Positions 11,471 through 34,615 of a stretch of 36,307 nt of DNA are shown here, one piece after another. This DNA comes from an uncultured Alphaproteobacteria bacterium (lineage in GTDB: Bacteria; Pseudomonadota; Alphaproteobacteria; Rs-D84): NCBI GenBank assembly GCA_944389135.1, contig CALXLG010000022.1, forward strand, positions 1 through 36,307. Direction: 5' to 3'. The position numbers and the translations under genes were made by a program. Position 1 is the stretch's first letter. The number at the start of each line of letters is the position of its first letter. Below the pieces are notes generated by a model. That model made no database searches. It saw only the letters and a list, made by a program, of their open reading frames with translations, and was not told where the DNA came from.

Positions 11471-11968
11471 ATGAGCAAAATATTAAAAAACTTTAACTTA
11501 TTTGTTGACGGACGTGGTTATGCCGGTCGTGCTGAGGAAGTTACGCCACCAAAACTTACAATCAAGACAGAAGAAATAAGAGCAGGGGGCATGGATGCCC
11601 CCATTTCTGTTGATTTGGGAATGGAAAAACTGGAATGTCAATTTGTTTTGATTGAATATGACCCAGAACTATTAAAACAATTTGGTTTAGTTTCAGGAAA
11701 TAGTGTGCAATTGACATTACGTGGTGCGCTGGTTGATGAAACTTCAACAACACCTATGGTAATCGGTTTAAGAGGCATGTTTACTGAAGTTGATATGGGA
11801 AAGTTCAAGGCAGGTGACAAATCGACTCTGCAATGTACTGTAGCATGCCGGTATTATAGTTTGGATATAGGCGGTAACAGACTCATTGAAATAGACGTAG
11901 ACAATATGACCAGAGTTATAGATGGTACAGACCAATTGGCAGCTGTTCGTGAGGCGATAGGATTATAA
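11471..11968 (+). CDS. FII: Major tail tube protein FII
   Basis: The 165-residue product is a P2 FII-type tube protein: ILKNFNLFVDGRGYAGRAEEVTPPKL at the start and KTEEIRAGGMDAPISVDLGMEKLE, both typical of the family. It polymerises into the inner tube. It follows the sheath with an 11-base gap, in the P2 order. Confidence 0.94.
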   Translation: MSKILKNFNLFVDGRGYAGRAEEVTPPKLTIKTEEIRAGGMDAPISVDLGMEKLECQFVLIEYDPELLKQFGLVSGNSVQLTLRGALVDETSTTPMVIGLRGMFTEVDMGKFKAGDKSTLQCTVACRYYSLDIGGNRLIEIDVDNMTRVIDGTDQLAAVREAIGL

Positions 11969-11978
11969 GGAAAAAACT

Positions 11979-12242
11979 ATGGAAAAAATACAATTAAAAT
12001 ACCCAGTTACTGTGGACGGGGTGGAATATAAAGAAATAGAAATGCGGCGTAGCAAAGTCAAAGATCGTTTAGCAGTATCTAGCATGAAAACATCAGATGA
12101 GAATAAAGAAATACATTTATTTGCAAACTTATGTAATGTAGCACCTGCTGTGCTTGAGGAACTTGATGAAACAGATTATACGAAACTACAAAAGGTATAC
12201 ATCGGTTTTTTCGACTCGCAGGTGATATCCGTAGAGAAATAG
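11979..12242 (+). CDS. E: Tail assembly chaperone gpE (zero-frame product)
   Basis: The 87-residue protein (KYPVTVDGVEYKEIEMRRSKVKDRL near the start) fits the P2 gpE/TAC family that coats the tape measure during tail assembly. Its 3' part contains the slippery sequence T TTT TTC at 12206-12212, where a -1 shift would make a longer product. Position between tube and tape measure is the classical site. An AAGGA site lies before ATG 11979. Confidence 0.85.
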   Translation: MEKIQLKYPVTVDGVEYKEIEMRRSKVKDRLAVSSMKTSDENKEIHLFANLCNVAPAVLEELDETDYTKLQKVYIGFFDSQVISVEK

Positions 12243-12358
12243 TAGTGTTATCGATCATAACCCACTGGTCGTTGCATGAAATATTAGAATTAGATGAAGA
12301 AGATTTTTATAACTGGCACCAAACGGCGGTTATGGTGCAGAAAGAAATGGTAGGTTGA
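11979..12358 (+). CDS. Tail assembly chaperone E+E' by programmed -1 frameshift
   Basis: Joining the first 78 residues of E (to Phe at 12210-12212) with the -1 frame from 12212 gives a 126-residue protein. The extension starts RLAGDIRREIVVLSIITHWS and continues with LHEILELDEEDFYNWHQTA, the pattern of P2 GpE': a hydrophobic helix with HW, then an acidic helix and a W-H motif. The frame stays open from the slip site to TGA 12356-12358, one base before the tape measure start. The slip site has heptamer form X XXY YYZ with U runs, like P2's. The extension frame has no start codon of its own next to a ribosome site. Confidence 0.85.
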
Positions 12359-12359
12359 T

Positions 12360-14621
12360 ATGGGTGTTCAAACGGCAGTATCGGTAATCATTGGTGCAGA
12401 GCTTGGAGGAACGTTCAGGGGAGCGTTTGGAACCGCAGAAAAGCAATTATCTACATTAGGTAGTGCAATAAAGGGGTTGAATAAGAGCAGTGAAAATATA
12501 TCCGCATTTAAGCAGTTGCGTAATGAAACATTGACTTCTTACCAAACGTGGAAGAATGCTGAACAGCAGGTTGCTAAACTTGCACAGCAAATTAAAGCTA
12601 CGGAAAAACCATCTAAGCAACTTAGTAATGAATTTCGAAATGCAAAGAAAGATGCCTTATTAGCTAAGACCGCATATACACAAAATCGTAATAGCCTTGC
12701 TGAATTATCAAGTACTTTGAAACAAGCAGGAATAAATACCAAGCAGTTGGGGAAAGAACAAAACCAGCTTGTGAATGCGATAGATGTGTTAAAGGCAAGA
12801 TATACGTCTCTTTCTAATATTGAAAACAAGCGTCAAGCCAACCTAGCAAAACGTGCTGCATATCGTAGCCAAATAGTGGATGTGGTTGCGCTGGGAACAA
12901 GTTTGTACGGACTCGTTAAACCTGCTGTGGCTTTTGAATCTGCTATGGCGGACGTAAAAAAAGTGGTAGATTTTGATAGCCCGGAAGAAATTCGGCAGAT
13001 GGAGTCGGATATTAAAGAACTATCAAAGACAATACCGCTGTCTCTTGATGGGTTGGCACAAATTGTTGCAGCTGGGGGACAGTTGGGGGTCCCTAAAGAA
13101 AAACTTGCAGATTTTGCAAAGACTGCCTCACAAATGTCTGTTGCCTTTGATTTTTCCGCTGATGAGGCAGGACAATCAATGGCGAAACTTTCTAATGTTT
13201 TGCAGATGCCGATTGAGCAAATGGGGCTTGTGGGGGACGTGATAAACCATTTGTCAAATAACATAGCGGCAACGGCTCCAGAAATTGTAGAAGTAGATCT
13301 ACGTGCTGGCGCAATGGGCAAGTCGTTTGGTTTGGCGTATAACGAATTGTCTGCATTGGCTGGGGCCTTTATTGCTATGGGTAAAACGCCAGAAATTGCT
13401 GGTACTGCTATAAATATGATGACAAGCCGTCTAAAGCTAATCCCTGTATCGTCAGGGGCGGCACGTGAAGCATTTGATCAGTTGGGGATATCTATGAAAG
13501 ATTATACTCAATTGATTGAAAGCGGTAACGGGAAAGAGGCTTTGATGACTGTACTTGAGGCTTTGACACGAGTTCAAGGGATCAAACGCTCTCAAATCAT
13601 GAAAGATATGTTTGGCGAGGAGGCAACCAGACATGTAAACTCGTTGGTTGAAAGTTTGGATATGTTGAAAACAAACTTTCAATTAGTTGCAGATGAAACT
13701 GAATATACGGGTAGTATGCAACGGGAGTTTGCGGCACGTTCGGCAACAACTGAAAATAATATTCAATTGTTGAAAAACCAGATGGCTGTTTTAGCAACAA
13801 ATATCGGCTCAACACTATTACCTGCAATAAATTCTGTTGTAGGAATATTTGGTCAAGCAGCACATAGTTTAGCAGAGTTTGCGGAAAAGCATCCTACTTT
13901 GGTTAAATACATTGGTTTAGCGGTAGCAGGATTGACATCTGCTAAATTGGCAACATTTGCGTTGGGGTACGGTTTCACCTTTCTTAAAGGTGGTGTTTTA
14001 AGCATTATAAGCGTTTTTACACAAGCTCGTACAATATTCTCATTTGTTAGGCTTGGTCTAGTCGGTTTAATACCTATAATCAAGGCGGTTGGTACCGCTT
14101 TTATTGCTAACCCAATAGGATTGATAATAACGGCAATTGCTATAGGTGCGGCATTGATTATTAGATATTGGAAACCGATATCAGCATTCTTTAAGCGTTT
14201 GTTTGAGCCTGTTGTAGAAGTTTTCAAACGTGTGTGGAATTGGATTTCGAATTTATGGAATAAAGCCAGAGAAATCTTTGGAGGTATTAAAGAATGGGTC
14301 AAGAACTCTTGGGTGGGTAGCGCATGGAATTGGGCGTTTGGTTCTAATGAAACAGAGAGTGCAAACAATCTTGGACAGATGTCAAAGGTTGGGGATACTG
14401 TGTCTGTTGAGAACATTTTGCAGGGGCAACCAGCAACTCAATTGCCGCATAGTAAGATACCTGCAAATAACAATAGTTCTAACGTAGAAATATCTGCACC
14501 AATCACAATAAATGCAGCACCAGGAATGTCAGCAGAAGATGTAGCGGTTGCTGTTAAATCAGAGCTAGATAAGCGAGAAGCGGACAGCAACCGAAAACAA
14601 CGTAGCGTGAATTATGATTAG
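12360..14621 (+). CDS. T: Tail tape measure protein (TP901 type)
   Basis: The 753-residue product carries the TP901-type core (about 190-500): FESAMADVKKVVDFDSPEEI, IVAAGGQLGVPKEKLADF and SMAKLSNVLQMPIEQM, then a conserved IAMGKTPEIAGTAINMM segment. The N-terminal 150 residues are helical, probably coiled coil (KNAEQQVAKLAQQIKATEK). Two or three hydrophobic segments at about 515-610 could enter the host membrane. At roughly 1.5 angstroms per residue it would predict a tail near 110 nm. The start is 2 bases after the E' stop. The C-terminus overlaps the reverse-strand gene by 4 bases. Confidence 0.94.
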   Translation: MGVQTAVSVIIGAELGGTFRGAFGTAEKQLSTLGSAIKGLNKSSENISAFKQLRNETLTSYQTWKNAEQQVAKLAQQIKATEKPSKQLSNEFRNAKKDALLAKTAYTQNRNSLAELSSTLKQAGINTKQLGKEQNQLVNAIDVLKARYTSLSNIENKRQANLAKRAAYRSQIVDVVALGTSLYGLVKPAVAFESAMADVKKVVDFDSPEEIRQMESDIKELSKTIPLSLDGLAQIVAAGGQLGVPKEKLADFAKTASQMSVAFDFSADEAGQSMAKLSNVLQMPIEQMGLVGDVINHLSNNIAATAPEIVEVDLRAGAMGKSFGLAYNELSALAGAFIAMGKTPEIAGTAINMMTSRLKLIPVSSGAAREAFDQLGISMKDYTQLIESGNGKEALMTVLEALTRVQGIKRSQIMKDMFGEEATRHVNSLVESLDMLKTNFQLVADETEYTGSMQREFAARSATTENNIQLLKNQMAVLATNIGSTLLPAINSVVGIFGQAAHSLAEFAEKHPTLVKYIGLAVAGLTSAKLATFALGYGFTFLKGGVLSIISVFTQARTIFSFVRLGLVGLIPIIKAVGTAFIANPIGLIITAIAIGAALIIRYWKPISAFFKRLFEPVVEVFKRVWNWISNLWNKAREIFGGIKEWVKNSWVGSAWNWAFGSNETESANNLGQMSKVGDTVSVENILQGQPATQLPHSKIPANNNSSNVEISAPITINAAPGMSAEDVAVAVKSELDKREADSNRKQRSVNYD

Positions 14622-14887
14622 ATATTAACCATAATATATTCGCTATCAGCAGGTATTATTTCAGAACGTTCAATATCTTTGAATGTTATGGTTACTTCAT
14701 CGCCAGGGGTAACATTTGTAAGGATGAAAACTCTGTTTTTAGAAAATTCATGGTGATTTGCATTTTGGTTCAATTCTGTTGAACGACCATTGCCATGTAC
14801 GTGTACATGAATACCATCAGGTGACTTTGCGTGATTTGCAGTTTTTGCCGTTTCGCTTTCTAGATTGATTAAAACAGCTAAATCCAT
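14618..14887 (-). CDS. Reverse-strand cargo gene in the tail operon, histidine-rich, unknown function
   Basis: The 89-residue protein starts at the ATG whose AAGGAG site (reverse of 14894-14899) lies six bases upstream; an in-frame TTG at 14893 would sit directly on that site and is rejected. It contains IHVHVHGNG (about 27-35) and NHHEF, then a beta-rich C-terminal half (RVFILTNVTPGDEVTITFKD) that could be a small beta-sandwich. No signal peptide or membrane segment is seen. It sits against the direction of all late genes, between tape measure and gpU, and has its own promoter-like sequence. This is the layout of a phage moron expressed from the lysogen. I do not recognise the family. Confidence 0.75.
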   Translation of the reverse strand: MDLAVLINLESETAKTANHAKSPDGIHVHVHGNGRSTELNQNANHHEFSKNRVFILTNVTPGDEVTITFKDIERSEIIPADSEYIMVNI

Positions 14888-14915
14888 ATTCAACTCCTTT
14901 ATTTTTTATGGGATG

Positions 14916-14944
14916 TATGTAGGAACGAGAATAAGAAATGTCAA
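14916..14944 (-). promoter_or_regulatory. Promoter-like sequence for the reverse-strand cargo gene
   Basis: On the minus strand, TTGACA (reverse of 14939-14944) and TACATA (reverse of 14916-14921) are 17 bases apart. The -35 is a perfect consensus and the -10 is partial. The predicted start would be near 14909, about 22 bases before the cargo ATG. The -35 overlaps the start codon of gpU on the other strand, so transcription from it could interfere with U expression. Confidence 0.6.
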
Positions 14945-15438
14945 GTGTAGGCGATTTATTACAAAGTGTAGGTGGAAAAATAAATCTGAATTCTGCCCTT
15001 AATATCAACATGATGATGATATTGGGGGTATACAGATTCTGTATTTCCAATGCAGCGTATAACTTGTTAGCTCGCAACACGGAATATAACTGGCAAGAAC
15101 AACAAAGGCTTGGTACTACGCCAGCAATGCAATTTGTCGGACCGGGTATGGACAGTATTACGTTGCAAGGCGAAATATATCCGCAGTTCAAGGGTGGAAT
15201 ACGTCAAGTTAGCCTGATGCGTGCTGAAGCCGGTTTAGGGCTTCCTTTAATGCTTATAAGCGGAAATGGAACAGCTTTCGGGCGTTGGTGCATAACTTCT
15301 ATAAATGAAGTTCAAACAACTTTCCTAAAGGATGGCACAGCACGCAAGGTGTCCTTCACATTAGCTCTTAAACGATATGGTGAAGAACAACAACAGGGGT
15401 TATTAGGTATTGTTCAACAAGTAGCAGGTGCGTTATGA
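14938..15438 (+). CDS. U: Tail completion protein gpU
   Basis: The 166-residue product fits P2 gpU (tail terminator family). MMMILGVYRFCISNAAYNLL and the EYNWQEQQRLGTTPAMQFVGPGMDSITLQGEIYPQFKGG segment are highly typical. The C-terminus TSINEVQTTFLKDGTARKVSFTLALKRY also matches. Order U-X-D follows P2. It overlaps X by 4 bases. Confidence 0.93.
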   Translation: MSSVGDLLQSVGGKINLNSALNINMMMILGVYRFCISNAAYNLLARNTEYNWQEQQRLGTTPAMQFVGPGMDSITLQGEIYPQFKGGIRQVSLMRAEAGLGLPLMLISGNGTAFGRWCITSINEVQTTFLKDGTARKVSFTLALKRYGEEQQQGLLGIVQQVAGAL

Positions 15439-15641
15439 CGGTATATGTAACAGTTGATGGCGATACGTTAGATTATATAGTTTGGCGACATTATGGAAAA
15501 ACTAGTGGTGTGTTGGAACAGGTTTTAGAACAAAATCGACATTTAAGACAATATGATGCGGTGTTGCCGGCTGGAGTACAAATAACTTTACCGATAATTC
15601 CAGAAAAAAATCAAAAACAGAAAATTAAAATTTGGCAATAA
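15435..15641 (+). CDS. X: Tail protein gpX (LysM-like)
   Basis: The 68-residue protein is a single LysM-like domain: VDGDTLDYIVWRHYGKT at the start and AGVQITLPIIPE near the end, as in the P2 gpX family. In P2 it belongs to the tail tip and may bind peptidoglycan. Its TAA shares the A with the following ATG (TAATG), so D is translationally coupled. Confidence 0.92.
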   Translation: MTVYVTVDGDTLDYIVWRHYGKTSGVLEQVLEQNRHLRQYDAVLPAGVQITLPIIPEKNQKQKIKIWQ

Positions 15642-16615
15642 TGAAACCTAACTTTTCAATCATAGCCGATAATAAAGACGTAACAGATTTATTACAGTCA
15701 AGGTTATTGTCACTAAGTATTAGTGATGAAATAGGACTTGTATCTGATATACTTACGATAAAATTAGATAACAGAGATTCTGTTTTTGAGATTCCTTCTT
15801 GTGGCGCAAATTTACAGATTTCATTAGGATATGATAGTGATATATATTCAATGGGGCAGTTTGTAGTTGATGAAATAGAGCTCAACGCACCGCCAGAAAC
15901 TTTGACTATAACCGCTAGAGCATCAAATTCGATGTTGCATGATTTAGGAAGTTTTAGAAGCCCTAAAAGCAAATCTTGGGAAAATCAAAATTTATCATCG
16001 ATAGTTAGCGCATTAGCAAATGCATATGGTATGCAAGCGGAGCTATCAAGCGTATATAAAGGCATATTTATAGACCATATAGACCAAACGTGTGAAAGTG
16101 ATTGTGCTTTCATTCAGCGTTTAGCAACAGAATATGGCGGGTCAGTAAAAATATCCGGTGGAAAATTATTGTTTATTGACCCCTATACAGGCCAATTTCC
16201 AGATGGTACACCACTGCCTAAAATACAAGTTGGCGAATTGTCTGATTATTCATTACGAATAACCGAGCGCAATAAGTATGGCAGAGTGGTTGCCAAATAT
16301 TATGATTTCGATGCCGGGGAAGAAAAAGAGGTTACGATTGGTAATCAAAGCCCGACATACACTTTTCGAGAAACATTTAATAGTGAAATTCAAGCAAAGA
16401 GTAGAGCTAATTCCAAGTTGGTGAATATGCGTACAGGTATATATACATTAAATATAAATATGCCTGGAAATCCTTTGCTGTCAGCGGAAAGCGTGCTCGA
16501 TATTCAGACTGGAGCCGAAGAAATACTAGGAACGTGGATTGTTAAAGCCGCTATGCACGTACTGAATCCTTCGGGTTATAAGACAAGTATAGAGGCAACT
16601 AAACCAAGGGAGTAG
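15641..16615 (+). CDS. D: Baseplate hub protein gpD (late control gene D family)
   Basis: The 324-residue protein fits the P2 gpD family (gp27-like hub): DVTDLLQSRLLSLSISDEIGLVSDILTIKLDNRD at the start, LTITARASNSMLHDLGSFRSPKSKSW (about 88-113), a LATEYGGSVKISGGKLLFID strand pair, and the GIYTLNINMPGNPLLSAES end. It caps the spike. Start at ATG 15641, overlapping the X stop, is preferred over an in-frame TTG at 15632 inside X. Confidence 0.93.
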   Translation: MKPNFSIIADNKDVTDLLQSRLLSLSISDEIGLVSDILTIKLDNRDSVFEIPSCGANLQISLGYDSDIYSMGQFVVDEIELNAPPETLTITARASNSMLHDLGSFRSPKSKSWENQNLSSIVSALANAYGMQAELSSVYKGIFIDHIDQTCESDCAFIQRLATEYGGSVKISGGKLLFIDPYTGQFPDGTPLPKIQVGELSDYSLRITERNKYGRVVAKYYDFDAGEEKEVTIGNQSPTYTFRETFNSEIQAKSRANSKLVNMRTGIYTLNINMPGNPLLSAESVLDIQTGAEEILGTWIVKAAMHVLNPSGYKTSIEATKPRE

Positions 16616-16618
16616 TCA

Positions 16619-16864
16619 ATGGTTAAACATCAGCAGGAACGAGAGGGGTTTAAGATGCGGATAGATGGTCGGATCTTATACGGAGTAGTAGTGGCTTTGA
16701 TAGGCTTTGTGATTAGGGCAGAATCTCACCACTCATCAGTTAATACTAGGTTAGAACAGTTGGAGCAAAGAACTGATACCTTAGAGTCGGATTTAAAAAT
16801 AATTAAAGAGTCGTTGTACGAGATAAAAGGCGATGTGAAGATATTGATAAAGGGGGTAAATTGA
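16619..16864 (+). CDS. Small membrane protein with coiled coil, holin/XhlA-like candidate
   Basis: The 81-residue protein has one membrane segment (about 20-35: ILYGVVVALIGFVIRA) followed by a coiled-coil-like stretch (VNTRLEQLEQRTDTLESDLKII). Two in-frame ATG codons, 16619 and 16653, both have purine-rich sites upstream (AGGGAG and GAGGGG). Dual starts with a short basic extension are a known feature of holin/antiholin pairs such as lambda S. The position before a muralytic gene supports a lysis role, but either this or the next gene could be the holin. Confidence 0.6.
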   Translation: MVKHQQEREGFKMRIDGRILYGVVVALIGFVIRAESHHSSVNTRLEQLEQRTDTLESDLKIIKESLYEIKGDVKILIKGVN

Positions 16865-17079
16865 TGCGAAAATTTTTTACATATTTGGGCAGGATGTTCT
16901 CAGATCAGAATGGAAATCCGCTAGCAAGAAGATATGCTTGTGCTTTGTTTGGTATTACGGCAATAGTTTTAGCCTTTTTAAACTATGACATTGAATTAGT
17001 GGGGGTATTTGTTGCAGCAGCATTTGGCGAAAACATAATCAACATATTTAGTAGAAAACGAGGAAAAAATGAAACATGA
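16864..17079 (+). CDS. Small two-helix membrane protein, holin candidate
   Basis: The 71-residue protein has two hydrophobic segments (about 28-42 and 45-58: ALFGITAIVLAFLN and VGVFVAAAFGENII). A basic tail (FSRKRGKN) would stay in the cytoplasm. Start ATG 16864 overlaps the preceding TGA (TGATG) and has AAGGGGG upstream. Size and position before the muralytic gene fit a class II holin. The sequence alone does not identify the family. Confidence 0.6.
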   Translation: MRKFFTYLGRMFSDQNGNPLARRYACALFGITAIVLAFLNYDIELVGVFVAAAFGENIINIFSRKRGKNET

Positions 17080-17473
17080 ACCAAGAGGAATAAGAAACAA
17101 CAACCCAGGCAATATACGTTATAATGCGACAAGTTGGGTTGGATTAGCTGTGCCTCCAAGTGACGGGGAATTTTGTGTTTTTACAGAACCAAAGTATGGG
17201 ATACGTGCGCTGGCAAGAATAATAAAAGTATATAATGCAAAATATGGGATAAATACAGTTGCAGGAATAGTTAAACGATGGGCTCCTCCATGTGAAAATG
17301 ATACGAAAGCATACATTCACAGCATATGTCAGCAGACAGGTTTTAATGCAACATCAAAATTGAATCTAGCAGATGAAAAAGTGTTGCTTGCATTAGTAAA
17401 ATCAATCATAAAACATGAAAATGGAAAACAGCCGTACACAGATAAAGAAATAATCGAGGGGATAAGATGCTAA
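17069..17473 (+). CDS. Probable endolysin/lytic transglycosylase-like protein
   Basis: The 134-residue protein starts RGIRNNNPGNIRYNATSWVG, a motif common to phage muralytic proteins often annotated as structural P5 or transglycosylase-like. The IVKRWAPPCENDTKAYIHSI segment (about 67-86) is the second conserved part. There is no signal peptide, so it would depend on a holin. It overlaps the candidate holin by 11 bases and the spanin gene by 7. The enzyme class (transglycosylase versus muramidase) cannot be settled here. Confidence 0.75.
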   Translation: MKHEPRGIRNNNPGNIRYNATSWVGLAVPPSDGEFCVFTEPKYGIRALARIIKVYNAKYGINTVAGIVKRWAPPCENDTKAYIHSICQQTGFNATSKLNLADEKVLLALVKSIIKHENGKQPYTDKEIIEGIRC

Positions 17474-17682
17474 AATACATAAAACAATTTTGGGGCTACA
17501 TTGTAGCTGGTGCAATTGCATTGGCTTATTTTTTTGGAATAAAAAAAGGAAAGGAAAATGAAAAAACACATCAAACTAATAAGATTTTGGCGAACATGGA
17601 AAGCGGTAATCGTGCTAGGAACAGCCTTGATACTGATCCTGCTGTGCGTGACAGGTTGCACAAGAAATATAAGCGTAAGTGA
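17467..17682 (+). CDS. Inner-membrane spanin (Rz-like)
   Basis: The 71-residue protein has one N-terminal membrane segment (about 10-24: YIVAGAIALAYFFGI) and a charged periplasmic part (KKGKENEKTHQTNK and RDRLHKKYKRK). A second gene starts inside it in another frame and encodes a lipoprotein. This overlapping pair at the end of a lysis cassette is the hallmark of i-spanin and o-spanin genes. A GAGGGG site precedes ATG 17467. Confidence 0.7.
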   Translation: MLKYIKQFWGYIVAGAIALAYFFGIKKGKENEKTHQTNKILANMESGNRARNSLDTDPAVRDRLHKKYKRK

Positions 17683-17791
17683 TTATTGCTTGTTATATAG
17701 ACCTATATATGCAGATTATGACAACGATACACCAGAAACGGTACAGCAAATTGATGCAAATAATGTGGTGTATGACAATATCTGCGCATAA
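17558..17791 (+). CDS. Outer-membrane spanin lipoprotein (Rz1-like)
   Basis: The 77-residue product has a basic start, a hydrophobic stretch and the lipobox LCVTGC (Cys at about 34). The mature part is short: TRNISVSDYCLLYRPIY, then a T..QI..NN..YDNIC pattern seen in Rz1-like phage lipoproteins. It overlaps the i-spanin gene by 125 bases in a different frame. Two mature cysteines could form a disulphide. Together the pair would join the inner and outer membranes to complete lysis of a Gram-negative host. Confidence 0.75.
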   Translation: MKKHIKLIRFWRTWKAVIVLGTALILILLCVTGCTRNISVSDYCLLYRPIYADYDNDTPETVQQIDANNVVYDNICA

Positions 17792-20670: not shown

Positions 20671-21090
20671 ATGTACAAGTTAATAAATTTTCAGGTTCAT
20701 GGTAACTATCAAGGAAATTTAGTAGCTCTGGAAAAAGGGGCTGATTTTCCGTTTGAGATCCGTCGTGTTTATTATATATGGGGAACAACACCGTCAAATA
20801 TGGTGCGTGGAAAACATGCCCACCGCAAACTGGAACAGGTAATAGTATGTACATCTGGTAGTTGTGATTTTATTTTAGATAACGGCACAAGTCGTGAAAC
20901 AGTTCATTTAAGCTCACCCGCACAGGGGCTATATATCAAACATAACATTTGGCGTGAGTTTACCAATTTTTCGACTGATTGTGTTGTTATGGTTTTGGCA
21001 TCGGAACATTATGATGAAAAAGATTATATTCGTGATTACCAAACTTTCTTATCTGAAGTAAAGCAACAACAAAAGGCAAAAACAAAATGA
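20671..21090 (+). CDS. fdtA: dTDP-4-oxo-6-deoxyglucose 3,4-ketoisomerase (FdtA/QdtA family)
   Basis: The 139-residue cupin converts dTDP-4-oxo-6-deoxyglucose to the 3-oxo isomer. [11 protein letters not shown] holds His49 and His51, the same positions as the conserved pair of FdtA. The [33 protein letters not shown] start and the [15 protein letters not shown] segment are typical of the family. Whether the product is the galacto (Fuc3N) or gluco (Qui3N) form cannot be told by eye. It is the first enzyme gene of the operon and overlaps the acetyltransferase gene by 4 bases. Confidence 0.9.
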
Positions 21091-21530
21091 TTCATCCTTT
21101 GTCGGACGTGCAGTCAAAAAACATAGGCAACAACACAAATGTGTGGCAATTTTGCGTAATTTTGCCGGATGCACAAATAGGCGAAAATTGCAATATATGT
21201 TCGCATTGTTTAATAGAAAATGACGTAGTAATTGGGAACAACGTAACGATAAAGTGCGGGGTTCAAATTTGGGATGGTATGCGTATTGGTGATAATGTAT
21301 TTATTGGTCCAAATGTAACTTTTTGCAATGATCGCCATCCGAAATCTAGAAATAAAGACTGGGTTTTAGAACCAGTTGTCATTGAACATGGCGCAAGCGT
21401 TGGGGCAAATGTCACTATTTTGCCTGGTGTTATAGTTGGTGCTGGTGCAATAATTGGTGCCGGTTCTGTTGTGACAAAAAATGTGCCTACTGGTGCAACT
21501 GTTATTGGAAACCCAGCAAGGATGAGGTAG
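21087..21530 (+). CDS. fdtC: dTDP-3-amino-3,6-dideoxyhexose N-acetyltransferase (FdtC/QdtC family)
   Basis: The 147-residue protein is a left-handed beta-helix hexapeptide acyltransferase, with repeated [IV]G-type hexads (IGENCNI, IGNNVTI, IGDNVFI, VGANVTI) and the ending GNPARMR. The [11 protein letters not shown] loop (about 86-96) with the catalytic His type is typical of WxcM/FdtC-like enzymes. It would acetylate the 3-amino sugar made by the aminotransferase seven kilobases downstream, as a trimer using acetyl-CoA. Start overlaps the FdtA-like stop. Confidence 0.87.
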
Positions 21531-21535
21531 TCAGC

Positions 21536-23914
21536 ATGTCACAAATAAAACTGTCTATCATTATGCCGCTTTTTAATGTAGAACGAACAATACGTTTGGC
21601 GTTGGATTCTGTATTGATGCAGAAAGTTGACTTTGAATATGAAATCATCGCAATTGATGATGCGTCTACGGATAATACGATAAGTATATTGCAAGAATAT
21701 GCCAGAAAACATAAGAATATAAAAATAATTGCTCATACAGAAAACAAGGGTAATGCAATTGCTTTTTACGATGGTTTGGTTGCTAGCAGTGGCGATTATT
21801 TTTGTGTCTTAGATGGGGATGACTATTACACAATAAAAAGCAAGTTACAAAAACAAGTGGACTTTCTAGATGGCGATAAATCGCAGGAATATTTTGCAGT
21901 ATCTCATAAATATTTGCGTGTTAATGAAAAATTCCAGATTTTTGATGATCCTATGTTATATACAGGTCCACAAGAGTATACATATCTTGATGTCTTGTTG
22001 ATCAATTTTTATTCGCATACAACGACATATATGTATCGCAATATATTCCGTGGACAAGTTCCAGAAAAATTCAAAGAACCATTGTATCGTGGTGACAATC
22101 CCAGAACATTTATGCATGGATTTTATTCCAAAGGCAAAGTAAAAAATTTAGATTTTGTTGGCAGTGTATATTTTTATAATGGACAAGGAATATGGTCACA
22201 AACATCGCGGGCAGAACAAGATGCACGCAATATCAAAATGCGTACAGAATTAGGGGGAAATCTGAACAGTGACATAGAGCGCACCATTTACTGGTTGGGA
22301 ATGCAGAAAATTCGTGTTGTAAATCGTAGTGCTGTTATTCGCCCACCATATGGCTCCGGGATGTTTCAGGACGCAACACTATTTTTTGATTATTTAACTA
22401 GCAGGGCCAAAAAATATGCTTTTTCTCAAAAAGATTTTATTTTTCAAGGCTTATATAAATCAGAGTATATAGACACGTTTTGTGAAAGTTTGGGATTTGT
22501 AGAAATGGTACGTCGTGGTTATACTCCATCACAACCAGTAGAACCTACGAAAGATAATATATTGATTACTGTGTCAAAGCTGACAACAACAGGTGGCGGC
22601 GTATATCATGAAATTAAAGACATTATCGCAATGTATGCGGACAAAAATGTGTATTTGTTGTGGACGGATGTTCCTGCAATTGATGATTTAGATGATAAAG
22701 TTCGTAATCAGCTGGGGGCTTTTGATAATCTGACAATGTTATTCGGACCAAAGTCTGCATATAACAAACTGGCAGAATTGGTTGATACAGTGTTGACAGT
22801 CAAACCAGAAAAAATATATCACTATTGTGGGCATGATAACGTATATGCAGCGGCAATGATACAATCAATGCTGTCTAAAAACATATGCGTATTCTCGTTT
22901 GATCACGGCTTTTCGTTGGGACTGGACAACACCAACTATGACGTATACATAACCAAGCGACCAACAGATTATGATATATTAACCGAACGTTATGGCGACA
23001 AGGTTATATATATTCCATGTTGGAACGCAGACAAAATTGGCGATAACAAATACAAACCATTTAATGGTCACAATGGTTTGATAACAGCATCTGCCGCTGC
23101 CAGATATTATAAATTGGCATCTGGGGGCGGAGGATATATTGACCTTATCATAGAATTGTTGAAAAAAACTGGTGGACGGCATATTCATTATGGACCGATT
23201 CCAGATGAAGAAAAGCGCGAAATAAGCAAGAAATTATCAACCGCAGGTTTGCAATCTGACCAATTTGTAAATATAGAATGGGCAGAAAACTTGGGGCAGT
23301 CAATGTACGATGAACACGTTGATGTGTTTATAGAACCGTTTCCAACAGTATCATACAAGATTACATTGGATGTATTGAGTGCCGGAATTCCTGTTTTTGT
23401 ACATAAATCTGATGTTCGCATGGGGATAACAGATTTTATTTATCAAGAATGCCTGGCATGGAAGACCCCAGAAGATTTTGTTACGGTATTAACTTCTTTG
23501 ACACAAAAAGACTTAGGACATCATTCAAAATTGTCTCGTGATTATTATGTTAAAAACCATCGGCCAGCGACTCTTGTAAAGTCTTTTATCACAGAAAGCA
23601 ACTTTAGCCAACCACGAACGGTTAAAATCTTGGATAATCTTTTAGTTGATACATCTAATATTGATGCATTTTTGGGGACTGATATACAAAAATTCTTGCC
23701 AAAGACGCCTGTCGACAAATCTGTCCCAGCAAAAAAAATCCTTGTTCAACACTATCATAAATCTTTTGTTGCTAATTTACGGCTGAAACAAAGATTCAAG
23801 GTGTTTACGTATTCGTTCTTGTTGATGTTGGCACAAGTGCCGTTGCTGGATTTATTGTGCAGGTCCAATAAACGAAAGAAGTTGTTAGGTAAAATAAACA
23901 AGTACTTCAGATAA
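21536..23914 (+). CDS. Two-domain glycosyltransferase, GT2 plus second transferase-like domain
   Basis: The 792-residue protein starts with a GT-A family 2 domain (about 1-250: LSIIMPLFNVERTIRLALDS, IAIDDASTDNT and CVLDGDDYY as the metal-binding DxD). After a linker, a second domain (about 340-690) has a GT-B-like pattern: SKLTTTGGGVYHEIKDII, KIYHYCGHDNVYAAAMI, FSFDHGFSLGL, FIEPFPTVSYKITLDVLSAGIPVFVH, the last resembling the donor-binding site of GT-B enzymes. A short hydrophobic stretch near 765-780 may anchor the protein. It could add two sugars in sequence. Linkage and donors are unknown. Confidence 0.8.
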   Translation: MSQIKLSIIMPLFNVERTIRLALDSVLMQKVDFEYEIIAIDDASTDNTISILQEYARKHKNIKIIAHTENKGNAIAFYDGLVASSGDYFCVLDGDDYYTIKSKLQKQVDFLDGDKSQEYFAVSHKYLRVNEKFQIFDDPMLYTGPQEYTYLDVLLINFYSHTTTYMYRNIFRGQVPEKFKEPLYRGDNPRTFMHGFYSKGKVKNLDFVGSVYFYNGQGIWSQTSRAEQDARNIKMRTELGGNLNSDIERTIYWLGMQKIRVVNRSAVIRPPYGSGMFQDATLFFDYLTSRAKKYAFSQKDFIFQGLYKSEYIDTFCESLGFVEMVRRGYTPSQPVEPTKDNILITVSKLTTTGGGVYHEIKDIIAMYADKNVYLLWTDVPAIDDLDDKVRNQLGAFDNLTMLFGPKSAYNKLAELVDTVLTVKPEKIYHYCGHDNVYAAAMIQSMLSKNICVFSFDHGFSLGLDNTNYDVYITKRPTDYDILTERYGDKVIYIPCWNADKIGDNKYKPFNGHNGLITASAAARYYKLASGGGGYIDLIIELLKKTGGRHIHYGPIPDEEKREISKKLSTAGLQSDQFVNIEWAENLGQSMYDEHVDVFIEPFPTVSYKITLDVLSAGIPVFVHKSDVRMGITDFIYQECLAWKTPEDFVTVLTSLTQKDLGHHSKLSRDYYVKNHRPATLVKSFITESNFSQPRTVKILDNLLVDTSNIDAFLGTDIQKFLPKTPVDKSVPAKKILVQHYHKSFVANLRLKQRFKVFTYSFLLMLAQVPLLDLLCRSNKRKKLLGKINKYFR

Positions 23915-23929
23915 AAATAGAGGTAAAAT

Positions 23930-25876
23930 ATGTTACGAGGGTTGTGGGGAGGTAAATATGAGATCATATTCAAGGCAGACGATTTGTCTGGAATTACAGA
24001 TAATGTCTTGCAGTTGGATGAGTTAATCAAAAGACAGCGCATACGGGTGTCTTGGGGAATTATTGGCAGTTCCCTAAGGAATTATGATAAAGATTTTATA
24101 GAGTTTTTGAAAAAGAATAAAAGATTCTCAAGATACCATTTCTTTAATCATGGTTGGTTGCATCTAGGTGGCGAAGAAGATGAATTCAAAAATAAAAATA
24201 TGACCTATCAATTAGAGGCTTTACAGAATACACAAAGAATTGTGGCGGAAAAGATAGGATTGGTTTTGAATACTTTTGGAGCACCTTGTAACCATATTGA
24301 TGACAATACGTTGGATGCTATGGAGCGTATCCCAGAATTGCGCTACTGGTATTATGCGAATCCAAAGACAACAAAAATAAATATACTTCGTTCATTTGAG
24401 TTAGAAAAAGGAGTAGGTAAACCAAATTATGATTTCTTTGTTGAAAACTGGACAAAGTGTACAAATAAAGCGAGAATTTTGACATTTCAGATACACCCAA
24501 ACATGTGGTCACAAGATGCTTTTGCAGAGTTCGAAAAAATAGTTCTTTTTTTGAAAAAGAAAGGTTGCCGTTTTATTACTCCAAACCAAGTGTCACAAAA
24601 AAACACAAAAAGTAAGTTTAGAGAACTGATCGCACGGTTTATACAAAGAAAAAACGCAAAAAAAGAAAGACAACAGATGGTAAAAACGTTCCAAGAACAG
24701 AACAGTAGAACCTTGTCTAAATTGCGGAAAGAGTTGAAGACTGGTCGAAAGATAAAGATTGGATTTTATGTTGTTTTTGACAGTGTTTTCCCTGCCGAAA
24801 AGATTTATAAGGAATGCATAAACGATGATTTATTCGAACCTTTCATTTTTGTAATTCCAGACGTGTCACGCGGCGAAGCCAATATGTGGCACCAAATGGA
24901 CAAGACATATGCGACATTGTCCAAAAAATATAAAAATGTCCGCAAATCGTATGATGAGAAAACCAAGCAATTCATTGATATCAGCGACAGCGTGGACATG
25001 GCGTTCTTTGCAAATCCATATGACGGTATGACTCACGAATTTTATTCAATAGAATATAACGTTAAACATGGGGTGTTGCCACTGTATGTGTCGTATGGCG
25101 CAATGCCAAGCAAAAACGCAATTCGGTCCATTATCACAATGCCTAGTTTAAGCCAAGCATGGCTGGTCTTTGCAGACACGGCGGAAAATTACAACGATTT
25201 TAAGAAATATACAGCTGCCAAAGGCAAAAATGTTATTTTGACTGGTTACTGCAAAATGGATGAATTATCCCAAGTGCCTGTAGAAAAACGCAAACGCACA
25301 AAAATAATAATCGCCCCACATCATACTGTTTCTCATAGGGGGTTACCTTTGTCGACTTTTATGACATATCACAAATTTTTCTTGCGATTGCCAGAATTGT
25401 ATCCTGATATTGATTTCGTATTTCGACCACATCCATTGTTGTTTGTGACATTGTCAAGACCAGAGCTATGGGGAGCAGAACGAGTTCACGAATATATTGC
25501 CAAAATGACCGCACACAAAAACGTAGAATATCAAGACGGTGGTGACTATTTTGATACGTTTATAAATTCCGATGCTTTGATACACGATTGTGCATCATTT
25601 ATGCTGGAATATCTGTATACAGATCATCCTGTATGCTTTTTAATCAAGACAGGGAATAAGAATTCTAAGATCTTTGCAAAGCTGGGATTAAACTGCATAA
25701 AACATCACTACAAGGCATTTAATGAAAAACAGATTCTGGACTTCATTAACGACGTTGTCATAGCTAAAAATGACCCGATGGCAGTTGCCAGACACGCATA
25801 TGCTCAGACATTGAAATTGAATTATCCATACGTGTCACGGGCAATTGTTGAGCACATAAAAGGTTTAATACAATGA
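23930..25876 (+). CDS. Fusion of deacetylase-like domain and CDP-alcohol phosphotransferase (TagF-like)
   Basis: The 648-residue protein begins with a polysaccharide-deacetylase-like domain (about 8-215): FKADD for the metal-binding aspartates, HGWLH for the His pair, GAPCNHID and FQIHPNM for later motifs. A basic linker (about 220-270, KNAKKERQQ) follows. The C-terminal domain (about 275-648) matches the CDP-glycerol glycerophosphotransferase family: IIIAPHHTVS, FVFRPHP and LIHDCASFMLEYLYTDHPV. It would add polyol-phosphate groups to a glycan, and the first domain could remove an acetyl group. The next gene, a TagD-like enzyme, would supply the CDP-alcohol. Overlap with it is 4 bases. Confidence 0.78.
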   Translation: MLRGLWGGKYEIIFKADDLSGITDNVLQLDELIKRQRIRVSWGIIGSSLRNYDKDFIEFLKKNKRFSRYHFFNHGWLHLGGEEDEFKNKNMTYQLEALQNTQRIVAEKIGLVLNTFGAPCNHIDDNTLDAMERIPELRYWYYANPKTTKINILRSFELEKGVGKPNYDFFVENWTKCTNKARILTFQIHPNMWSQDAFAEFEKIVLFLKKKGCRFITPNQVSQKNTKSKFRELIARFIQRKNAKKERQQMVKTFQEQNSRTLSKLRKELKTGRKIKIGFYVVFDSVFPAEKIYKECINDDLFEPFIFVIPDVSRGEANMWHQMDKTYATLSKKYKNVRKSYDEKTKQFIDISDSVDMAFFANPYDGMTHEFYSIEYNVKHGVLPLYVSYGAMPSKNAIRSIITMPSLSQAWLVFADTAENYNDFKKYTAAKGKNVILTGYCKMDELSQVPVEKRKRTKIIIAPHHTVSHRGLPLSTFMTYHKFFLRLPELYPDIDFVFRPHPLLFVTLSRPELWGAERVHEYIAKMTAHKNVEYQDGGDYFDTFINSDALIHDCASFMLEYLYTDHPVCFLIKTGNKNSKIFAKLGLNCIKHHYKAFNEKQILDFINDVVIAKNDPMAVARHAYAQTLKLNYPYVSRAIVEHIKGLIQ

Positions 25877-26280
25877 AAAAAGTACTGACGGTTGGTGTAT
25901 TTGACTATTTCCATTATGGGCATTTGAAAGTCTTTGAACAGGCAAAGGGAATTTGCCCTGATGCTTATCTGATTGTTGCGGTCCAAGAATCTGAGTTCAT
26001 AAAAAATACCAAACCAGATGCAGAAATCTTTTATTCAACTAATGTTCGAACAGAGTTGGTGGCCGCGATAAGATGTGTAGATGAGGTCGTGACATATACA
26101 AATGTTGCCGATATTGTTAAAATATTAGCTTTTGACATCTTTGCAGTTGGTGCCGATCAAAACCATGAGGGTTTTCAGAAAGCAATTAAATACTGTCAAG
26201 AACAGGGAAAACAAGTGGTACGGTTAAAACGTACACCGAACATATCATCTAGTTCTCTAAAACAACAGTTACAAGACTAG
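25873..26280 (+). CDS. Glycerol-3-phosphate cytidylyltransferase-like enzyme (TagD-like)
   Basis: The 135-residue protein shows the nucleotidyltransferase signature GVFDYFHYGHL with His14 and His17, and RTPNISSS near the end in place of the usual R-T-x-G-I-S-T-T. It would make a CDP-activated alcohol from an alcohol phosphate and CTP. Glycerol phosphate is the usual substrate, but related enzymes use other polyols. It sits directly after the TagF-like fusion, so the two are likely partners. Length is typical of the family. Confidence 0.85.
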   Translation: MKKVLTVGVFDYFHYGHLKVFEQAKGICPDAYLIVAVQESEFIKNTKPDAEIFYSTNVRTELVAAIRCVDEVVTYTNVADIVKILAFDIFAVGADQNHEGFQKAIKYCQEQGKQVVRLKRTPNISSSSLKQQLQD

Positions 26281-26289
26281 GATTACAGA

Positions 26290-28011
26290 ATGTTTCAGAT
26301 AGAATTAGAACCAAATCTTGCCAATATCACAGCTGTGAATCCTAACATGTATTATACACGGCTGGATTTAATATATAAAAATGTTTATGTCCTGAAAACA
26401 ACTAGTACAAAGGATGTTATTCAATATATCCCAATTGCATTTGAAAACGACCATTGTTCTATATCGTCATATATGGTCGATATCAGCAAAGATTTATATA
26501 ATGCAATTTTTGCATTTGTTTATACCCATTGGGGAGTAGATAAATTCCATATGCAACACTGTTCTGTACCATTTAAAGGTTTAAAGCAGACACGTCACTA
26601 CCTGCTACAGTTACCAAATACATACCAAGAGTACCTTGGGCAATTTACATCAAAATCAAGAAACAATCTGCGCCGTGAAAAACTGTCCCTAGAACAGATG
26701 TTTAATTGCAAATATGTACATCTATCAAGTCACGATCTGAATTCGGATTTTTTTGAATGTTTTATTCAACAAGCAGCACAAACAAAACAAGAAATGCATA
26801 TTACTGCACAACAATTGCAGAAAATGACAACAGATGCGCTAGTTTTGATGGCGAATGGAAAACCTATTTCAATCGTTTTATACAACAAAATAGAAGGCAG
26901 TACAGATGTTGCCTGCATCAGTATGTCATATGACCCTGCATATAAAGCATACGGTCCTGGTAAGATTTTGTATTACCACTTTATAAAAAATATGACTGAA
27001 CAAAATATGAAACGCATTTATATGGGTGGTGGCGATTACGGTTATAAGAAAAACAGTCACGCAGAAGAAACGATAACATATAACGGCTGCACAAAACTAT
27101 CCACAGCACAAAAAATACTGTTTTCTGCAAAACATTTGATGAAAAAAAAGAAGAAAACACCAGTTATTGTGCGAACAGATGGAGGCATTTGTTCTCAAAT
27201 AGCATTTTACGCATATGGACTAGAACTAGAATCTCGTGGCTTTGATGTATCATATGACCTGAACTGGTTTAAATCATATGCTTTGGATACCAATGGACAA
27301 CATCGGCGTATTTATAGTATTGAACAAGCCTTTCCAAATATTCATACAAAAGAGTGTGATATTAAACAGTGGCGTTGGCTAAGAAAATGGCGGCGACATT
27401 CCGGTATTTTTGCAAAAGACGTAAAAAAAGCAACCTATGTGTCTGGATATCCCACAGATAGAACATTGTTGTTCATAAAGCATCTAGAATTCTTTCGCAA
27501 TAATTTTGCACCTATAGATTCCCAATTATGTGAAAACATGATCAGTCGCATAACAGCATTCCCTTCCTGTGCTGTACATGTTCGCCGTGGGGATTTGTCT
27601 GGGTATAATCCTGCCTATGGTTTTCCACCATCTGTTGATTACTTTATCCAAGCCATAGAATTTATAAAATCACGGAATAAAGATGTCACGTTTTATTTCT
27701 TTTCTGACGAAATAGACTGGGTTCAAGCAGTTGTTGTTCCCAAACTATCACTAGACACAAAATATGCTCTGGTAGATAGTTTTGATTCCGATAAGGGGTA
27801 TTTGGATTTATATACAATGTCACACGCAGATTATGTCGTTGCATCTCAAGGCAGTTTTGGAATATTTGCCGCATTGTTATCAAAAAAACAACCGTTATTG
27901 ATCATGTCTCGTTATAACCAGAATATACTGGATCACTATCCAAACTGTATGTATATAAACGAAGATATTAAGCAAAAACAATTACAGGAAAAGAAAGGAC
28001 AAACAGAATGA
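26290..28011 (+). CDS. Fusion of GNAT-like (CelD/BcsL type) and GT11 fucosyltransferase-like domains
   Basis: The 573-residue protein has an N-terminal part (about 60-270) with the acetyltransferase_6 pattern: [13 protein letters not shown], a helical stretch, [19 protein letters not shown] and [13 protein letters not shown]. The second part (about 290-560) begins [22 protein letters not shown], a GT11 start-type motif, and carries VHVRRGDL (about 429-436), the donor-binding HxRRGD motif of alpha-1,2-fucosyltransferases. Later come [10 protein letters not shown] and [16 protein letters not shown]. The join is at the MKKKKKTP linker. Acylation plus fucose transfer on one chain is inferred. It overlaps the aminotransferase gene by 4 bases. 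Confidence 0.78.
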
Positions 28012-29096
28012 TAAAATTCTTGGATTTAGAAAAAGTAAACAATCGGTTTCGTGCCGATATCGATAATCGTATTCGTGATATTTTGGATGCCGGTTGGTAT
28101 TTATCTGGAAAATATAACGAAGAATTCACCGCACATTTTGCAGAGTTTTGTGGGACAAAATATGCTATCGGTGTGGCAAACGGACTAGATGCCCTGAATC
28201 TGATTATTCGTGGGTATGGCTGGGGGGCTGGCGATGAAATTATAGTACCGGCAAATACGTTTATTGCGACCATTTTGGCGATTTCTGAAAACAACTGTAC
28301 ACCTGTGTTGGTGGAACCAGATATAAACACATACAACATCAATCCTGATTTGATCGAGGCTGCAATTACAACACGTACCAAAGCGATTTTGTTAGTGCAT
28401 TTGTATGGTCAGGCGGTTCAAATGGATAAAATCTGGGAATTAGCCAAGAAATATAACCTGAAAGTCATTGAAGATGCCGCCCAAGCACATGGGGCTATGT
28501 ATAACGGTCGCAGAGTAGGAAATCTGGGGGATGCCGCCGCATTTTCATTCTATCCAGGCAAAAACCTGGGGGCATTCGGTGATGCAGGTGGGGTGACAAC
28601 CAACGATCCAGAATTATATGAAAAAATCCGTGCCATCGCCAATTATGGTTCTGATTACAAATATCACCATGTTTACAAGGGTATCAATTCTCGTTTGGAT
28701 GAAATTCAGGCGGCAATATTGGATGCAAAACTGCCACATTTGGATGCGGATAATGCACGCAGACGTGAAATAGCAACCGCATACCGGACACGTATCACCA
28801 ATCCTAAAATTATATTGCCAAAGACATACGATGAAAACGCACATGTGTGGCACGTATTCGTGATTCGTACAGAAAACCGTGATGCGTTGGCAAAATACCT
28901 GAACGATAATGATATTCAGACGAATATCCATTATCCAACACCTCCACACAAACAAGGCGCATACAGCGAATTGGCGAACCAATCGTTCTCAGTCAGCGAA
29001 GAAATCCATCGCACGTGCCTGTCTTTGCCGATATCACCTGTTTTAACCGATGAAGAAGTAGGAAGAATTATAGGGGTAATCAATGCCTGGAATTAA
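28008..29096 (+). CDS. fdtB: dTDP-3-oxo-6-deoxyhexose aminotransferase (FdtB/QdtB family)
   Basis: The 362-residue protein is a DegT/DnrJ/EryC1 sugar aminotransferase. [15 protein letters not shown], the EDAAQAHGA motif with Asp156 and the PLP lysine Lys185 in [16 protein letters not shown] are all present. It would use glutamate to aminate the 3-oxo sugar made by the FdtA-like enzyme. FdtA, FdtC and FdtB lie in one operon but not side by side. RmlA and RmlB, needed to make the precursor, are not in the window. Start overlaps the preceding gene, and the end overlaps the next by 14 bases. Confidence 0.92.
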
Positions 29097-30171
29097 GAAA
29101 GGAACTGTATCTATTTTATGTCCATCATATAATCATGAACTGTATGTTGCCAGTTTTATGGACAGTGTAATGGCACAGACAAACCAAAACTGGGAATTGG
29201 TTATAATAGATGATAATTCAACTGATGGTAATGCGGAAATTATAAAGAAATACACGGACCCACGTATTAAACTGATAGAGCACAAATGGAATCAGGGTAT
29301 AAATGCAGGGCTAAATCATGCATTTGAGGTGGCAACAGGTGAATTTGTATCGTTTTGCGCATCAGATGATATGCTTTGCCCAGATTATGTGGAAAATGTA
29401 TTAAAAACGTTTAATGAACACCCAACAACAGATATTGTATATTGTGATTTACAACTGATTGATAACGACAATAAGGTTTTGAGGGGGGAAAAGTGGAAAA
29501 ATATAGTTGGTACACGTTTTGAGCTAGTGCGCAGACTGTTTTTACGTGGAAACTGCATGTTGTCACCTGGGCTGGCGATGCGTCGTAATGCAATGCGAGC
29601 TTTATATCCATTACCATTGGCAATATCGCAATACCAAGACTATAAAATGCATATAGATTTATTGTTGAACTTTGATTTTGTTATTATGGATAAGATTTGT
29701 GTATGGTACAGAAAGCCATCTATGAAATCTGGCATTAGTAACTGGGATGTTGCTACATTGAAAATCCGTGATTTAGAAGAAAATACTTTAATGAACACAA
29801 TGCTTCAAATAAAGACAGTTCGACAATTAAAACAGATATTTACCCCTGAACAGTTGGAACCATTTGGTCAAATGACCAATAAGTTTATCCCATATTATCT
29901 GGGTATGTTGGCATTAAAGTATGGGGAAACAGAATATAAACAACTGTGGGGATACCATACAGTTGCAAAATTCTTGGACGAATCTAATAATTATCAGGAG
30001 GTTCAGGACAAATACGGATTTAATTTCAAAGAATACCTAGGATTGGTTCGTTATATGGGTGAATCAGGATGGTTTAAAAAGTATCAGAAATACAAAAAAC
30101 TGTTCAACATTATGCTTGTGTTGGTGTTGTTTTTTGCTTTGACTACAAGTATTTATAATTTTATAGCATAG
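29083..30171 (+). CDS. Family 2 glycosyltransferase with C-terminal membrane segment
   Basis: The 362-residue protein has the GT2 pattern: [33 protein letters not shown] and [15 protein letters not shown], where the SDD is the metal-binding site. A hydrophobic segment at about 343-360 ([19 protein letters not shown]) may anchor it to the inner membrane. It is the last gene of the operon. The donor is unknown. Confidence 0.85.
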
Positions 30172-30748: not shown

Positions 30749-31313
30749 AGGTTCCCTTTTGTTTTTTATCTATTTTTTGTTCTACTCAACCCGTAGTTAA
30801 GTGCAAAATATATTGTTGTTAAAAACGACTATAAATAAAAATACGATCGAAACGAGTCGATCGTTACAAATAAATCCTCTTATGATGAAGTATACCACAA
30901 ACGACCATAAAAATCAATAGTTTTTTTATTTTGTATGTCAATGACAAAAAATAATTGATAATGCAGTAATTGAGAAATATGATTTTTGCGTCAAGGAAAG
31001 TTTTTTGAATATAACAGCATAGTTTTAACAGAGATAAAAAAGAAGATACATTGAAGAAGATAATGCGTTTCTAGTATTGTCTATTCGGGCGCATTTTATG
31101 CCACGTATTTATAATTTATTTGTTAAAACAGGGGTATGATTTTAGCCCCTGAAATCATCTCTGAAATCACACAGATTTAATACTTGAAATCAGAGATGAT
31201 TTCAGCAGTAATGGTATATATTACTGTGTGTCAAATATGTGTTTTTGTTTTACAACTAGGGCAATTTAGAGCAACTTTCGTCCAATTTTGCATAAAAACG
31301 GGGCAGCCGAAAG
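30749..31313. other. Intergenic stretch with hairpins, no coding support
   Basis: No open frame here looks real. It holds a perfect 6-bp stem CGATCG at about 30843 and 30857 with an 8-base loop, followed on the minus strand by a T-rich tract, and a long perfect inverted repeat at 31149-31205. The rest is AT-rich. Transcript start sites are not clear. Confidence 0.6.
31149..31205. repeat. Perfect 16-bp inverted repeat with 25-base spacer
   Basis: CTGAAATCATCTCTGA at 31149-31164 and TCAGAGATGATTTCAG at 31190-31205 are exact reverse complements. The short word GAAATCA occurs several times in and between the arms. It lies about 140 bases outside the tRNA-Asn fragment, on the chromosome-proximal side by my reading. 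It could be a protein-binding site, an RNA hairpin or a small transposable relic. Confidence 0.85.
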
Positions 31314-31341
31314 ACAATAAAAAATCCGCAGAAATCTGCGG
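31314..31341 (-). terminator. Terminator behind the tRNA-Asn fragment
   Basis: On the minus strand CCGCAG and CTGCGG form a 6- to 7-bp stem (31326-31341), followed by GGATTTTTTATTG. It lies directly after the CCA of the tRNA fragment, as the native tRNA terminator would. Confidence 0.75.
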
Positions 31342-31348
31342 AAATTCG

Positions 31349-31394
31349 TGGCTCGGGCAACTGGACTCGAACCAGTGACATACGGATTAACAGT
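31349..31394 (-). other. 3' half of tRNA-Asn (GTT), attachment-site scar
   Basis: The minus strand carries ACTGTTAATCCG, with anticodon GTT in the loop, then TATGTCACTGG, the TTCGAGT loop, CCAGT, acceptor strand TGCCCGA, G and CCA. This is the 3' half of tRNA-Asn, and much of it equals the E. coli gene as I recall it. On the 5' side the sequence GCCAGTTCATA does not form a D-arm or acceptor strand, so the gene is incomplete. A break in the anticodon loop is the usual crossover of tyrosine-recombinase islands. The intact tRNA should lie at the far end of the island. Confidence 0.85.
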
Positions 31395-33973: not shown

Positions 33974-34615
33974 TTACTCGCTTTCTGCCGCTTTTTTCTC
34001 CAATTCTAAAGCATCCCAGTCATTATAAAAACGATTGTTAAAGCAAGAATAGTCGTACTGCTTACCTTTGTTTAATACAACACCGTCTTCTCGTATGGTT
34101 AAGGTTGTTTTTTGATTGTCTGTAATCTGATACGTATCCAAATTTATATTATCAAACTTCTCAACATCCTTCGTATTTAAAATATAAAAATGGGCTTTTT
34201 TTTCTTCTTTGTTATCAAATACTGCTATCCATACATAAAAAACTTCTTTACCCATGTTGTACCGAATTTTTGGATGAAAACTAAAATGCCTTTGATCCTT
34301 CTTTTTAGAAATCGCGATTCCTTCTGATGTTTTGACTTGTAAATATCTCGATATGACTTCTAGTTCGGTTTCTTTGCAAAATTGGCACAAATTTGTAACA
34401 CATTTTTGTGTTTTATTTTTATATTTGGTATTACGTATATATTGATCCGAATATTTTTTGCACTTAGGACACCAATACTTTGTAATTGTAAAATCTATAC
34501 CCTCATCAATATACGCCCTATGAACCTGCCAGCCAAGTTCGTGTAATACCATGGACAAACGCATTTCACCATATAAACCTATCACTAGCTTCTTTTTATC
34601 TATAATTTCACTCAT
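33974..34615 (-). CDS. Probable restriction endonuclease, PD-(D/E)xK fold with four-cysteine insert
   Basis: The 213-residue protein has IGLYGEMRLSMVLHELGWQV (Glu17), DEGID (Asp41) and YLQVKTSEG (Gln93, Lys95), the order E..D..QxK of restriction enzymes. Between Asp41 and Gln93 lies an insert with CPKC (49-52) and CQFC (77-80), a likely zinc ribbon. It overlaps the end of the methyltransferase gene by 8 bases, so the two are co-transcribed with the methyltransferase first. Together they form a probable type II R-M system. The recognition site is unknown. Confidence 0.8.
   Translation of the reverse strand: MSEIIDKKKLVIGLYGEMRLSMVLHELGWQVHRAYIDEGIDFTITKYWCPKCKKYSDQYIRNTKYKNKTQKCVTNLCQFCKETELEVISRYLQVKTSEGIAISKKKDQRHFSFHPKIRYNMGKEVFYVWIAVFDNKEEKKAHFYILNTKDVEKFDNINLDTYQITDNQKTTLTIREDGVVLNKGKQYDYSCFNNRFYNDWDALELEKKAAESE

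Follow-up and report, generated by a model that had tools for sequence, protein, structure and literature searches.

A counter-oriented, exchangeable accessory gene between the tape measure gene T and gpU in a prophage of an uncultured alphaproteobacterium

Phage morons are single genes that are inserted between two genes adjacent in relatives, deviate in base composition, and carry their own start signals (PMC4378225). P2-like coliphages feature a hot spot of anti-phage cargo between gpA and gpQ, which includes old and tin (PMC9122126). The accessory region G of Pseudomonas Mu-like phages holds anti-CRISPR genes (PMC4378225). In prophages, a region antisense to the lytic genes has been described as a hallmark of accessory loci (PMC7067206).

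The window—the whole stretch of 36,307 nucleotides analysed here—belongs to the 0.99 Mb genome of an uncultured alphaproteobacterium, which is reported to be 98.5% complete (G000). The prophage on it is a mosaic myophage with a lambda-family portal, an S49 peptidase, a Mu-like capsid, and a P2-type contractile tail. A further contig of this genome holds another, distant gpU match (L017, G000:C21); hence, a second phage tail module may be present in the host. The contig end at position 1 may be explained by a 69-bp tandem repeat present in four copies (1–278). Downstream of the prophage end, genes at 20671–30171 resemble sugar or surface-polysaccharide enzymes, as judged by eye from the list of open reading frames. 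A 205-bp stretch (31190–31394) shares 93% identity with DNA close to the G124 prophage despite different surroundings and could represent an attachment site or a small gene common to both. On the minus strand at 33974–35819, a type II DNA methyltransferase overlaps an unassigned ORF of 213 aa, perhaps a restriction partner. The locus of interest lies in the tail operon and consists of the following features:

12360–14621, plus strand: gene T, tail length tape measure, left flank of the insert
14622–14937, no strand: insert between T and U, 316 bp, missing from nine prophages of the genus
14618–14887, minus strand: cargo ORF, 89 aa, ATG at 14887; orphan family with a predicted Ig/transthyretin-like β-sandwich
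14894–14900, minus strand: Shine–Dalgarno sequence AAAGGAG of the cargo gene, six bases before the ATG and identical in the G124 copy
14938–15438, plus strand: gpU, P2 GpU family (PF06995, E 4.6e-36), right flank of the insert

The insert is an exchangeable accessory (moron) cassette that carries one counter-oriented gene between T and gpU. Of the 11 genomes of the order that carry gpU, 9 have T directly adjacent to or overlapping U, with a gap of at most about 10 nt; the insert is restricted to G000 and G124. A sister-species prophage holds a 92% copy. Most of the 76 gpU loci of IMG/VR likewise feature a T–U gap of at most 14 nt, and five junctions carry an insert, each with a minus-strand gene ending at most about 12 nt from the T stop. 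A gap of 245 bp in L107 was rejected as an insert since T-like coding sequence seems, by eye, to continue up to U. Among eight described phages with a related gpU, including P2 and VHML, no reverse-strand gene is annotated between T and U. The GC content of the insert is 0.342 compared with 0.413 in T and 0.419 in U, and the inserts of L028, L049, L067, L070, and L073 are also lower in GC than their neighbours. When the three diverged versions of the family, the gene of L049, and the gene shared by L070 and L073 are counted as separate arrivals at this junction, all five have minus-strand orientation (p 0.03, assuming independence).

The exchange is most apparent in near-identical phages. L028 matches the window at 98.9% in T and 99.6% in U, whereas the cargo proteins are 27–28% identical (BLASTP 6e-11) and the cargo DNA is only about 55% alike. 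The BLASTN blocks between the two, 11944–14628 (98.9%) and 14917–17775 (97.3%), end at sharp breakpoints. L067 carries a third homologue of the cargo protein (BLASTP 1e-12; hhalign probability 96%), and L069, which is 94.7% identical to it in T and 96.5% in U, is without an insert: Here, the end of T overlaps with the beginning of U (ATGACTAA). In L067, ACTATGACTAA is found on each side of the insert, so that T and U both remain whole. Only three diverged versions of the family are known; three further phages hold two unrelated minus-strand genes at the same junction:

14629–14916, no strand: cassette exchanged relative to L028, with DNA homology lost between the BLASTN blocks
L049:1675–1900, minus strand: T–U cargo of L049, 74 aa, two hydrophobic stretches
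L070 1452–2003 and L073:1456–1956, minus strand: T–U cargo of L070 and L073, 166 aa, with CLPMSCC, GHAWLE, and DLS motifs

The latter protein is possibly a transglutaminase-like enzyme, based on a faint Pfam match (E 0.28). The best promoter-like match in L049 is TTGTCA-17-AATAAT, with the −35 element again inside the gpU start. The T–U junction is best viewed as a hot spot for reverse-oriented accessory genes, at which relatives hold a diverged version, other genes, or nothing.

With phage morons, the cargo gene shares the insertion between adjacent genes, the deviating base composition, and its own start signals. It differs by a weak promoter, the lack of a terminator, the counter-orientation in a tail operon, and interchangeable diverged versions at one site. 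The preliminary description had read it as a moron, and its absence from close relatives, interchangeable versions, AT-rich composition, and start signals agree with this; since it has no terminator of its own, it is filed here as an accessory cargo gene and not as a textbook moron transcription unit. The gpA–gpQ hot spot is likewise a small locus of high turnover between two conserved genes in phages with a P2-type tail, but the T–U site is located inside the tail operon and not cos-proximal, and holds single small genes without a recognised defence domain. Region G resembles it by low-GC, small orphan genes swapped between the structural genes of close phages; however, the cargo is not homologous, has no anti-CRISPR-associated gene, and lies on the strand opposite to its neighbours.

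The reading frame itself bears several marks of a gene. As the preliminary description had proposed, it encodes 89 residues with the stretches GIHVHVHGNG (HVHVH being residues 27–31) and NHHEF (HH being residues 45–46), follows a good ribosome site, and fits precisely between T and U: The cargo stop TAA (14618–14620) overlaps the T stop TAG (14619–14621). When the insert was shuffled 5000 times with its dinucleotides preserved, only 19 of the shuffles contained an ATG-initiated ORF of at least 89 codons. The codon usage is that of the phage's own genes (0.17 bits per codon compared with a shuffle mean of −0.19, and none of 2000 shuffles as high), with the cargo frame being the best frame of the region. 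Disruption of the frame in related prophages, which the preliminary description had named as a refutation of its reading, was seen in none of the copies found; the four family members are intact at 89, 89, 90, and 91 aa, and all of them feature a Shine–Dalgarno sequence.

Upstream of the start codon, a candidate promoter TTGACA-17-TACATA can be appreciated. This promoter, for which the preliminary description considered possible interference with gpU, is directed away from gpU; its predicted transcript would run antisense into T:

14939–14944, minus strand: −35-like TTGACA, 6/6 match, inside codons 1–3 of gpU, conserved in G124 and L028
14916–14921, minus strand: −10-like TACATA, weak at 3/6 in the window; TATATA in G124 and TATATG in L028, 4/6 each

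The sequence is thus present as previously proposed, with a spacer of 17 nt and a perfect −35 element, but its −10 element lacks the final T demanded by the sigma-70 scan, and the site is missing from the list of that scan. The −35 element is the gpU start read backwards (ATGTCAA), and its conservation may also stem from gpU coding and start. Because of this coincidence and the omission from the scan, the cargo promoter is plausible but not established. No terminator was found within 14300–15300. An AT-rich 10-bp hairpin (14605–14645, z −3.2) lies exactly over both overlapping stop codons and has no T run; it was rejected as a family feature since it is absent from L028 and L067.

The product was unrecognised from its letters and stays so in database searches: The family has no meaningful match in Pfam, PHROG, or PADLOC and no significant sequence match in the PDB. 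In PADLOC, three family members and two other T–U cargos gave no match at E 1 or better; in Pfam, Cupredoxin_1 stays below threshold (13.3 bits, cut-off 27). Searches for homologues in phages and plasmids returned none or non-significant matches only, and nothing in the viral fold library falls under E 0.001. Sequence matches to a laccase and a dynein light chain were rejected as not significant. Weak order-wide profile matches were judged to be chance—the two best of one search overlie long unrelated genes—and one in G126 was rejected because of the lack of a corresponding open frame. By eye, the protein contains neither a signal peptide nor a membrane segment. A structure search, as suggested in the preliminary description, yields a confident model and no telling relative. 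AlphaFold2 arrives at a pLDDT of 73 with two sequences and 86.8 with four (pTM 0.77), and the model features two helices and seven strands arranged as a sandwich. The closest folds are Ig-like and transthyretin-like domains, all with scores at a level common by chance: The best Foldseek E is 2.8e-3 (C-terminal domain of the PapC usher), and the best VIA Z is 7.1, below the level separating chance. The cargo protein is predicted to be a small Ig/transthyretin-like β-sandwich. Residues M1, L9, A14, N18, G25, E38, L39, N40, H46, R52, and F54 are invariant in all four members. Neither of the two distant homologues retains HVHVHGNG, and this stretch contains no invariant residue, which marks the His-rich strand as a trait of the window version; from NHHEF, the second His (H46) alone is kept throughout. 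As judged by these alignments and searches, the cargo proteins are a new, fast-diverging family.

Point substitutions were compared between the closest copies, G000 and G124. In T, the final 600 bp show no difference, and U diverges by 1%, whereas the cargo ORF has changed at 10 of 266 sites (nonsynonymous in seven codons, synonymous in one), and the leader has changed at 3 of 50. The nonsynonymous excess of the cargo over T, U, and X combined is significant (p 0.004); its nonsynonymous ratio by itself is not above neutral (p 0.27), nor is its substitution density above the mean of the 11.8-kb block (p 0.17). Because the latter two tests are non-significant, the swapping of diverged versions is the stronger evidence of diversification.

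For the function of the cassette, we consider the chances about even that it is a lysogen-expressed unit whose product antagonises competing phages. Expression in the lysogen is inferred from the orientation of the gene and from the accessory loci antisense to lytic genes in published prophages (PMC7067206). From a TTGACA-17-TA(C/T)AT(A/G) promoter, the cargo would be transcribed as long as the late tail genes are off; in the lytic cycle, cargo transcription would be opposed by late transcription that passes through the locus. The product would be a small soluble β-sandwich binding protein antagonising a variable partner, which would explain the turnover of versions between otherwise near-identical phages; the partner would most likely be a component of competing phages, with superinfection exclusion or defence as the outcome. 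A role in phage–phage competition with arms-race-like turnover is the most likely one, given this turnover, the other small cargo at the T–U junction, and the parallel with the P2-like hot spot (PMC9122126). Phage exclusion by the cargo protein, as considered in the preliminary description, is plausible. Quite unlikely in its entirety is the bolder version, in which the T–U junction serves as a dedicated arms-race slot, with the Ig-like orphan as a new superinfection-exclusion protein, each version recognising a different partner—perhaps rival tail components.

The same small, orphan, fast-changing, low-GC gene between structural genes resembles the anti-CRISPR site of Pseudomonas Mu-like phages (PMC4378225), and the contig also carries a type II methyltransferase. 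The product might inhibit a restriction, CRISPR, or other immune system of the host, being expressed either in the lysogen or upon phage entry, with versions tracking the host systems. This is unlikely, since the insert has room for one gene and thus no associated regulator, unlike known anti-CRISPR sites, the cargo is oriented against the late operon, and no known inhibitor family is matched. Morons often alter host traits, and a gene for host fitness unrelated to phage competition might bind metal via HVHVH and HH or confer another lysogen trait; with the His-rich motif missing from both distant homologues and H46 as sole invariant His, the metal handling proposed earlier finds no support as the family function, and we regard such a role as improbable. 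A minus-strand transcript running into T might itself block T expression of an infecting sister phage: The T end is nearly invariant, no terminator would stop the transcript, and the antisense RNA STnc6030 against the tailspike of prophage BTP1 provides a precedent (PMC7067206). Both are possible prophage transcripts opposite a tail gene, but the locus described here has a conserved protein-coding frame, kept across versions whose DNA is 55% alike, which argues that the protein matters and makes a purely antisense role very improbable. Ig-like domains are common on virions, and the location within the tail operon would suit a late decoration or tail assembly factor; the opposite strand to every tail gene and the absence in most close relatives speak against it, and it deserves little credence. 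Barely credible is a spurious ORF in non-coding filler: The 13 insert differences between the two closest copies are too few to prove frame constraint, yet frame-specific homology with length and start conserved in different phages, the codon usage, and the ORF shuffles all argue for a gene. The homologues already refute a spurious ORF, except if their common origin were itself non-coding.

The T–U junction is probably a site where these phages trade accessory weapons or shields. New are the place of the hot spot and the protein family, the general kind being already known. The finding places a cargo hot spot inside the tail operon, apart from the cos-proximal one of P2-like phages, and adds a new, quickly diverging protein family from phages whose hosts, alphaproteobacteria with small genomes, have been little studied. 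Near-identical phage pairs differing at T–U (the window and L028, L067 and L069) make its function directly testable.
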